NCBI GenBank assembly: GCA_031268245.1
Contig: JAIRXN010000122.1
Span: 1-32,645 of the forward strand
Direction of reading: 5' to 3'
DNA from: Treponema sp.
GTDB taxonomy: Bacteria > Spirochaetota > Spirochaetia > Treponematales > Breznakiellaceae
DNA length: 32,645 bases
Shown here: in pieces, positions 16,047 through 19,275 of the stretch
Layout of the letters: each line of letters opens with the position of its first letter
Numbering within the stretch: the stretch's first letter is position 1
Translations under genes and position numbers: made by a program
The notes under the pieces: model-generated
Seen by the model: only the letters and a program-made list of their open reading frames with translations
Databases searched by the model: none
Told to the model about the DNA's origin: nothing

Positions 16047-17099
16047 TCATTTTACCCTTACAAGCTCCATTTCGAACACGAGAAAACTGTTTGCCGGAAT
16101 CGGACCCGTATCCCGATCTCCGTAGGCAAGTTCCGGTGGAATCACCACGAGGCGTTTTTCTCCGATCTTCATGTCCAGTACCGCCTCATCCCAGCCGGGA
16201 ATTACCCTGCCTGTTCCCGCGGGAAACTCTATAGGCCCCCCATGCACAGCGGATTCATCAAAGACCTCCCCGGAGAGAAACATGCCCTTGTAGTTTACCG
16301 AAACATTCTTACCCTTCTGCGGTTTGTCGCCGCGGCCTTGCTTCTGGATGATGTAGCGCAGCCCCGAAGGGGTTTGTGTCGTATTGGGATACTTCCGGTT
16401 AATTTCGGCGATGACCGCATCCCGTTTTACCTTTACTTTGGCGGCATTACCGGCCTTTACCTGGGCAACAAGACTGTCAAAGGCAGCCTGATCGGCCTTG
16501 AATGCCTGGGCGGCGGCTCCGTTACGAATTATCGTAACTTTGTTGATTTTATCGCCCCGTTTGATGGCGTTGACCACATTTTGACCTTCAACTACCCTGC
16601 CGAAGACCGTATGGCGGTCATTCAGCCAGGGAGTATCCACAAGAGTGATGAAGAACTGGCTGCCGTTGGTATCAGGCCCGGCATTGGCCATGGACAGTAT
16701 TCCGGGTCCTGTATGCCTCAAACTGGAATCAAACTCGTCAGGAAAGCGGTAACCCGGCCCGCCGCTGCCGTTTCCCAAAGGATCTCCACCCTGAATCATA
16801 AAATCCTCGTCGTCACCATTGACCCGGGAAATAACCCGGTGGAAACTCAAACCGTCGTAGAAGGGCTTGCCCTGGGTATTACTCAGTTTGCCTTCCGCCA
16901 GGGCCACAAAATTGCAAACCGTAAGCGGAGTCTTCTCGAATTCCAGACGTATCACGATATTTCCCCGGGAAGTACTGATCCGGGCAAAAAGTCCGTTCCC
17001 CAGGGTAGCGTCATTGGGGGCTCCCAGAGCGGTTTCCACCATCAGGGTAAACAGGAGACCGCCAAGACCCGCGGCCAAAGGTTTTTTCATCATATTCAT
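16047..17099 (-). CDS. Dual-family peptidyl-prolyl isomerase, N-terminal cyclophilin fused to C-terminal FKBP, exported
   Basis: Signal peptide [24 protein letters not shown]; cyclophilin FHRVI...[19 protein letters not shown]...[35 protein letters not shown]...[30 protein letters not shown]. Confidence 0.93.
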
Positions 17100-17151: not shown

Positions 17152-19275
17152 TTGTTAGGGAAATTGAAGTTTTCGAACAAACTAATGTTGAAACCCATGA
17201 CTATTTTTTATAAGATGTTTGTACAAATGAATATTACCGAGATCCAGGATGAATTATTCCGCCTTGAGTATCCCAATCTTTCACGGGATCACGATCCCGA
17301 TATAGAACGGTATTTCTATCTGAGGGGTATCGGCCAGTCTCAGGACGCTCTGTTTATCTTTCAAAACCGAATCATCCCCCGGTACCCGGATCCGCTTTTC
17401 CGTACAGAGCTGATGAGGAGTTACCGCAAGCACAGTTCTTCTTTCCGTTTACTGCTTGATGCAGGCTACAGGGCTCTTGCGGCCCGCTCCCTGGAACGGA
17501 TACGGGCTATTCTGGGCTACATTGCCAAAAAAATTGAGACCTATAATCCCAGAGACATTTATTCAACGATAAAAACCGCGGAGGATATCCTGGCCTTGCT
17601 GCCCAGGGAACGTTACGAGGCGGTTGAGGGGATGGATCGTTTTTCCCGTTATGCCGATGCCCTGGAATTCCATCAAAAGTCGATTTTTCGCGCTTCGGAA
17701 TTGATCCGATCCTACCTTAACCAGTCTCTTTCGGTGATTGAAGACGAAAGACGCAGACAGGAGAGGCTCAGGCTAAGGGAAGAGAAGCGGAAACGGCAGC
17801 GTCTGGTAAAGGAAGATTGGGAAAGTTACCGTAGACAGAAACTTTACGGCTTCTCCGGCCCGGCTATCGATTTTTCCAGAGTGGTTTTTTCTCCGGCAGA
17901 CCTTGCACGCATCGAAATTCCATCCCGTTTTTCCAGTCTGGAAGACCAGACCCTGGCCTTCTGTGTCAAATACTGGAATTTTATCAATGATTCGGCTTTT
18001 GAACGCATACTTTTCCTCTATTCCCGCAAGTTTGGAAAGAAGAATTACGATGTATTTCTCGCCATCCGGCGGGGAAGGGCGGCCAAACGGCGGGATGACG
18101 AGATTCTCGCTTCGGTGCTTTCCTCTCTGACGACCGGTTACTACTATTCAATCCGGGGTGACCGTTATCTGCAGCGTAACTGGAATAGTCTCAAATATGC
18201 TTTGGAAAATGCCGGAAGGTTACGGGCGCTGCCCGCTCCCGCTTCAGGCGGCGCAGAAGCCTTGCGGGTTTCCACGGAGGCGGCTTTACCCGCGGCCTCC
18301 GGATTGGCTGCCTTACCGTCACCGAAAGGGGCTCCTTCCGCGGAGGGCGCTGCCGGGCCGCAGCGAAGCGGAGCCTCCTCCCGGACTGCAAGCGCCGGGA
18401 GCGGGCAAAGGAAAATAGGAACCGTAAAGAAACTGAAGATTGCCCCTGCAAAGACCTCTTCGGCCGGGGAGACCAAGATTGCCCCCGCAAGGCCGAATCA
18501 ACAACCCCGCCCTAAAGGGACGGGGTATGTTGGTTCTGATAGGTATGGATTGTATGCGGGATCCAATACCCATGAACCAACGGCGGATACCAGTATTAAA
18601 ACCGCCCTGAAGGGCGGGGTATTGGACCCGCCTGCGAATAAAACGTTTGCGGTAATACCGCCTTCGAAACCGGCCTTGCCTAAGAAACCTGCTGCGGCTG
18701 TAAAGCCGGTTTTGCCCGCACAGCCGAAATTGCTGCCTGCCAAACCGTCCGGCCAAAGTGTTTCTGCGCAGCCGGTCATTGTGAAACCGGCCGCCGTGAA
18801 TGTATCTCCGCCTCCAAAGCCGGTCAAAGCTGCCGTTCCGCCGCCTTCTGAACCGTCCCGGCAGAGTCTCCCCGAATCCAGGACAGGGATCTCCCAGGCT
18901 GCGGCAGAGGCCAAGCCCGGCGAACCGCCCCGCCGCAAAATTCGGCGCAACGCTGAAGTTCCCATAGAGCCTGCGGGTTCTTCGGTTTCGGACAGGCTTA
19001 GGCAGCTTTCGGGCCGTTCCTACGATTTGTACCAGGATCGTTTTCTTACCCATGTCCGCCAGGCCATACGCAAGGTACTCAGTTCAGGCCGCGGTATTTT
19101 CTTTACCCTGGGCGAAGATGCGGAGGATCTGGTATACAACTTCCTGGAGGCTCATTACTCCGATCCGTACATGAACTGGGCGGAAAGCGCCGAAAGGAGG
19201 GAACTTGCGGCCCTGGGCTTTGAACTTGAATCCCTTAATTCCATTATTGACGAATGTTACAAACGGCTGAATTAG
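17152..19275 (+). CDS. Large hypothetical protein with conserved N- and C-terminal regions and an Ala/Pro-rich disordered middle; start uncertain (17152, 17185 or 17227)
   Basis: Long single ORF; charged helical N-terminus; low-complexity Pro/Ala/Lys section about residues 365-600; conserved-looking C-terminus (LSGRSYDLYQDRFLTHVRQAIRKVLSSGRGIFFTLGEDAEDLV). Confidence 0.7.
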   Translation: MLGKLKFSNKLMLKPMTIFYKMFVQMNITEIQDELFRLEYPNLSRDHDPDIERYFYLRGIGQSQDALFIFQNRIIPRYPDPLFRTELMRSYRKHSSSFRLLLDAGYRALAARSLERIRAILGYIAKKIETYNPRDIYSTIKTAEDILALLPRERYEAVEGMDRFSRYADALEFHQKSIFRASELIRSYLNQSLSVIEDERRRQERLRLREEKRKRQRLVKEDWESYRRQKLYGFSGPAIDFSRVVFSPADLARIEIPSRFSSLEDQTLAFCVKYWNFINDSAFERILFLYSRKFGKKNYDVFLAIRRGRAAKRRDDEILASVLSSLTTGYYYSIRGDRYLQRNWNSLKYALENAGRLRALPAPASGGAEALRVSTEAALPAASGLAALPSPKGAPSAEGAAGPQRSGASSRTASAGSGQRKIGTVKKLKIAPAKTSSAGETKIAPARPNQQPRPKGTGYVGSDRYGLYAGSNTHEPTADTSIKTALKGGVLDPPANKTFAVIPPSKPALPKKPAAAVKPVLPAQPKLLPAKPSGQSVSAQPVIVKPAAVNVSPPPKPVKAAVPPPSEPSRQSLPESRTGISQAAAEAKPGEPPRRKIRRNAEVPIEPAGSSVSDRLRQLSGRSYDLYQDRFLTHVRQAIRKVLSSGRGIFFTLGEDAEDLVYNFLEAHYSDPYMNWAESAERRELAALGFELESLNSIIDECYKRLN
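18496..18631 (+). repeat. In-frame palindromic element inside the CDS
   Basis: Hairpin aatcaacaaccccgccct-aa-agggacggggtatgttggtt (18496-18535); arms gcgggatccaatacc (18556-18570)/ggtattggacccgc (18618-18631); inner ccgccct-ga-agggcgg (18602-18617). Confidence 0.75.

Follow-up and report, generated by a model that had tools for sequence, protein, structure and literature searches.

A protein-coding gene of a spirochaete, a Treponema species, carries within the region encoding a disordered linker a 141-bp insert, which is very probably a non-autonomous mini-transposon of IS200/IS605 descent, similar to the palindrome-associated transposable elements (PATEs) and inserted in frame. The element was studied in a window of 32,645 nucleotides (the whole stretch of DNA that was analysed, contig C66 of a 2.35-Mb genome which is 77% complete and assembled in 242 contigs), where the following features were delimited:

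17152 to 19275, plus strand: host gene, an open reading frame of 707 aa with a likely start at 17227
18496 to 18636, minus strand (inferred to be the active strand, the one transferred): inserted element of 141 bp, delimited by the empty site in the G002 and G003 orthologues, the protein alignment and the family logos
18496 to 18535, minus strand: P1, the subterminal palindrome of the right end (RE), AATCAACA-ACCCCGCCC-TAAA-GGGACGGGGT-A-TGTTGGTT
Terminus ..TTGTTGATT of the minus strand: the RE cleavage site in the proposed model
18556 to 18571, minus strand: one strand of P2, the long-range left-end stem, GCGGGATCCAATACCC
18602 to 18617, minus strand: inner hairpin within P2, CCGCCCTGAAGGGCGG, which matches the hairpin at the left end of IS200 elements that encode TnpA
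18617 to 18631, minus strand: the other strand of P2, GGGTATTGGACCCGC
18637 to 18642, minus strand: target site AATAAA (TTTATT on the minus strand), which flanks the left end, from the logo AAT(A/C)A(A) and the empty sites
About residues 25 to 355 of the host protein: helical N-terminal domain
About residues 355 to 610: long disordered Ala/Pro/Lys linker (AlphaFold pLDDT about 30)
About residues 611 to 706: conserved C-terminal domain

The insertion is exact. Two orthologues from the same genus (G002 and G003, apparently the same records as L113/L114) are about 90% identical to the host gene and lack exactly 141 bp. Their empty sites read GGCCG|AATAAAACG in G003 and GGCCG|GATAAAACG-like in G002; set side by side, GGC-CGAATAAAACG in G003 corresponds to GGC-CG[AATCAACAACC...CCGCCTGCG]AATAAAACG in the window, and the filled site has AAT at both ends where the empty site has a single AAT. 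The element, AATCAACA...CCTGCG, is read through on the plus strand by the host gene as 47 codons, NQQPRPKGTGYVGSDRYGLYAGSNTHEPTADTSIKTALKGGVLDPPA, which would be translated as part of the protein. In an alignment of ten proteins these 47 residues are present in the window protein only and absent from the nine orthologues, and no counterpart was seen in the more distant orthologues. A preliminary description had put the insert at 136 bp and 45 residues, slightly too short; it had correctly placed the palindromes CCGCCCTAAAGGGACGGGGTATGTTGG at 18507 and CCGCCCTGAAGGGCGGGGTATTGG at 18602, which contain the only two exact matches in the window to the 13-mer CCGCCCTNAAGGG. The start that it gave for the coding sequence, a TTG at 17152, should also be moved, since conservation among the orthologues begins at M26 and the true start is thus probably 17227 (MNITEIQDEL).

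The host protein has no match in Pfam or NCBIfam, and relatives of its gene were found in Treponema MAGs that, from a reading of the isolate names, come from termite guts. Because the AlphaFold model has a mean pLDDT of only 57, the disorder call alone was taken from it: the insert falls inside the linker, the length of which differs among the orthologues in the protein alignment. Landing in frame in a disordered linker would explain why the insertion was tolerated, and it is presumably neutral for the protein. Elsewhere in the window (16047-17099, minus strand), peptidyl-prolyl isomerases of the cyclophilin and FKBP types are joined in a single protein of 350 aa.

The element folds far better than expected from its composition. 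As DNA it reaches -33.4 kcal/mol, against -19.5 +/- 2.6 for shuffled sequences (z -5.4), and as RNA -68 against -44.6 +/- 3.5 (z -6.6), with no shuffle equally good. The stems are conserved: two-sided changes occur at 19 of the 26 pairs of P1 and P2, and helix 1 of P1 is 93% paired, with two-sided changes at 9/12 pairs (96 sequences). The cells with two-sided changes number 207, against 67 +/- 7 in shuffles and 17-58 in slid controls, in an alignment that was fitted to the covariance model and hence favours it. This model, R1, consists of the two stems P1 and P2 and scores 149.8 bits on the element at 18496-18636, the window copy being in the training set. Terminal inverted repeats were not found, as 3 of 20 terminal positions match, which is the chance level. 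The element has no TnpA reading and, at 141 bp, is too short for a transposase. An Rfam search returned nothing above threshold; among RNA classes, HEARO was rejected (14 bits in Rfam against a cut-off of 83), as was a TnpB omega RNA, a TnpB domain being present in one of 20 relatives and absent from the own genome.

The element is a member of a dispersed family. With a query of 145 bp, the own genome yielded partial copies, where counts are minima among the matches listed, and 30 of 59 relatives gave matches. With R1, copies appeared in 32 of these 59, which belong to four families of the order; within the own taxonomic family R1 detected them in 138 of 200 genomes, a survey in which the numbers of copies per genome are to be read as "at least". 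Near-identical 141-bp copies in G070 are, as sequences, consistent with recent spread. The preliminary description had named, as evidence against mobility, an insert present in all orthologues and a genome without further copies; the opposite was found on both counts. Most of 94 sampled copies are intergenic by an ORF test, so residence in frame is the exception, and the lengths of the 94 fall 40/31/23 modulo 3, so that keeping the frame reflects luck plus selection. We found no description of the family in the literature searched; it is apparently a common, undescribed repeat of Treponema and relatives.

Insertion follows a target rule. Logos of about 92-93 copies give N|AAT|CAACA at the left boundary, with N free, and CG|AAT|(A/C)AA at the right. 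A reading on the window strand was rejected: the target would be NAAT, which leaves the A/C-A-A preference past the right end unexplained. The minus-strand reading, TT(T/G)ATT|CG...TGTTGATT|N, is preferred because it explains both ends: the T-rich target stays at the left flank, and the flank past the other (N) end shows no sequence preference in the logos. Relatives spanning the junction were found at five other loci, four of which (PriA, MetRS, L004 and L153) are clean single-copy empty sites; L004 carries a deviant triplet and is ambiguous as to AAT duplication. Only AAT is common to both flanks and it belongs to the target/end motif; it may be a genuine 3-bp target duplication. At the L164 locus, two relatives, G003 and G001 (L298, L299), have a 20-21-bp remnant built from both element ends, which reads as the footprint of an internal deletion. 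The flanks of L159, L167, L138, L205, L166 and L176 suggest head-to-tail tandem copies with a common AAT junction. Four copies (L204, L055, L161 and L002) occupy the loop of a hairpin that was already there; a general preference for hairpin loops was rejected, as the folding advantage of joined over permuted flanks is slight, only about 2 sd.

The left end connects the family to IS200 transposases. In the own genome only TnpA fragments were seen, none inside the element, and one of them lies at a contig end directly behind a left end, TTATTTAATC-GCCAAGGGTTTAATTCCCCGCCGCTCTGCGGCGGTT. A search for the clade of this TnpA found it in 34 of the 200 genomes, and one TnpA of the clade matches NCBIfam transpos_IS200 at E 5e-34. 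The left ends of the clade mostly follow TTTATT or TTTAAT and have in common with the element the hairpin GGGTNNAATACCCCGCC..GGCGGTT. A profile of the element left end matched 20 of 33 regions upstream of TnpA ORFs, 17 of them at E<1e-3. Control sequence totalling 800 kb gave two matches; at least one of these stands beside a strong right-end match and probably represents a genuine copy. The closest left end is that of G078 (L276), TTTATTCGAGAGGGGTCTAATACCCCGCC, its TnpA element reading TTTATT|CGAGAGGGGTCTAATACCCCGCC..GGCGGTT where the window element reads TTTATT|CGCAGGCGGGTCCAATACCCCGCC..GGCGGTT. At the right end the resemblance to TnpA elements is weak (best E 0.015), and no TnpA element nearly identical to the family at both of its ends came to light. 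The earlier suggestion of IS200/IS605-type ends as a possible source agrees with the palindromes, the target rule and the left end, all of that type. Presence of the TnpA clade is not associated with presence of the element (27/34 genomes with the clade vs 111/166 without, p 0.22), and no Y1 transposase of any kind was detected in G033, G037 and G048, which are element-rich and complete or near-complete. Since some carriers have no detectable Y1, many copies must be relics or have been moved by an enzyme that was later lost, and the copies in these three genomes may be relics. IS200 TnpA genes of other types in G002 and G003 (L083, L084) were rejected as partners, their ends being different. 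In G070, a copy of a longer subfamily (L289, contig C268; CGCAGTGGGGTC...AGGTTCATT) has a TnpA element directly after it, which apparently inserted at the end of the copy and suggests a common target.

The orientation of the copies along the chromosome was analysed in three complete genomes, G037 and G033 and G167, the last two of which we take to be T. azotonutricium and T. primitia. GC skew places the origin of G033 near 0 and its terminus near 2.1 Mb; relative to the window orientation, 13 of 16 copies are on the minus strand in one half and 8 of 10 on the plus strand in the other, so that 21 of 26 conform to placement on the lagging-strand template (Fisher p 0.004). G037 shows no bias (7/12) and G167 has 10/14 among the copies listed; the three combined give 38/52 (p 0.0012), figures that are not controlled for gene orientation and are significant alone only in G033. 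The inferred active strand thus tends to lie on the lagging-strand template. We propose that an IS200-type HUH tyrosine transposase, supplied in trans, would bind both hairpins of the minus strand as single-stranded DNA, excise the element as a circle and insert it 3' of TT(T/G)ATT, the lagging-strand template being favoured, with no sizeable target duplication. With a length of 141 nt, divisible by three, and no stop in its plus-strand frame, the insert would lengthen a flexible part of the protein by 47 residues, and the gene would survive.

How palindromic elements that reside in frame, such as the Rickettsia palindromic elements (RPEs), spread is, to our knowledge, poorly resolved. Here, the exact empty sites, the target rule, the strand bias and a plausible class of transposase make the process testable, and the evidence for the origin of an in-frame insertion is unusually complete. 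The family is a new one of a known kind, PATE-type by its features and RPE-like by its residence in frame. PATEs of Haloquadratum are palindrome-associated transposable elements for which internal (core) deletions have been described (PMC3119063). Like them, the present elements have no transposase, no terminal inverted repeats and probably no sizeable target duplication, are multicopy, form homogeneous and heterogeneous subfamilies and show core deletions; near-terminal palindromes resembling IS605-type ends are present at the left end, the right end being suggestive. Unlike PATEs, the family is bacterial (Treponema and relatives), consists of other sequences and includes in-frame insertions into named proteins. 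With the IS200/IS605 elements IS608 and ISDra2, which are biased to the lagging-strand template (PMC6006769), it has in common subterminal hairpins, a short T-rich target on the 5' side of the left end, the absence of a preference on the 3' side and the strand bias, but the element, about 141 bp, has neither tnpA nor tnpB and its right-end hairpin adjoins the end. The stem-loops of Borrelia plasmids (PMC2775950) are likewise transposase-free, dispersed IS605-type hairpins linked to genes in a spirochaete; they are, however, plasmid-borne single hairpins located at the 3' ends of genes, whereas here whole two-ended elements lie within genes.

Other copies are also read in frame. In the own genome, PriA contains a 66-bp copy (L005:1454-1519) in the same orientation and frame as in the window gene, the site being empty in G004, G002 and G003. 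In G004, a 138-bp copy read on the opposite strand separates the anticodon-binding domain of MetRS from its tRNA-binding domain, at a site that is empty in G002, G001, G003 and the own genome. An unrelated 251-aa ORF of another species (L322, in G070) carries the window peptide in frame, and an ORF of G033 (L184) which reads through a 132-bp copy is a candidate case. Three others were rejected: the G003 copy L055 lies in fact in a shadow ORF, upstream of the gene for a chemotaxis receptor, and the open frames around L203 and L205 (G036), where the DNA is GC-rich, resemble shadow ORFs. The family also affects how core genes, priA and metG among them, are annotated. With its PriA and MetRS parallels, its further genomic copies and same-genus orthologues lacking exactly 47 codons, the element is, as the preliminary description had proposed, a mobile in-frame palindrome comparable to RPEs (PMC10969869), which are also palindromic, about 100-150 bp long and found in frame in unrelated genes. 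The likeness lies in these features, and the present family differs in being mostly intergenic and in having a transposase class that can be proposed. One could go further and regard it as a gene-adapted coding repeat, in which selection maintains a stop-free multiple of three and a portable peptide. The L322 peptide, the three in-frame insertions with empty orthologues and a length of 0 modulo 3 in 7/8 G070 copies would fit, but the intergenic majority, family lengths nearly random modulo 3, the MetRS copy read on the other strand and the free change of amino acids, by inspection, between the window copy and those of G070 make this unlikely. It is conceivable, if doubtful, that an IS200/IS605-derived PATE subfamily is a recurrent donor of the portable 47-residue peptide (NQQPRPKGTGYVGSDR.GLYAGSNT...TALKGGVLDPPA) to unrelated proteins in several species; it would then be an RPE-like system with an identifiable class of mobilising enzyme.

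A REP/RAYT-type palindrome moved by a domesticated TnpA-REP would account for a palindromic, many-copy repeat with tandem pairs at several loci. We consider it very improbable: the unit is two-ended, ~60-170 bp long and has a fixed target, unlike single hairpins with a GTAG foot, the consensus lacks a GTAG-type foot, and G033, G037 and G048 have no Y1 match. Integron attC sites or cassettes are scarcely credible, even though the P1 ends CAAC..GTTG resemble R boxes and integrons, some with long attC sites, are known in Treponema species (PMC3607928), because the copies are dispersed, whole insertions at TTKATT without a gene, and because no integron is reported in T. azotonutricium or T. primitia (PMC3607928) while G033 and G167 are copy-rich. 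Finally, a chance or lineage-specific low-complexity expansion of the linker, which the variable linker length of the orthologues might suggest, is negated by the exact empty site, the strong fold and the homologous copies elsewhere, and can practically be discarded.

Two further observations concern repeats resembling or adjoining the family. The 115-132-bp ab initio 'attC' sites of T. brennaborense and T. succinifaciens (PMC3607928) have a family-like length and could be copies of it. In G010 (L069, contig C18), an 87-nt copy adjoins an apparent CRISPR array with the repeat GTTTCAATCTACACACCCGCACGGGGTGTGAC.
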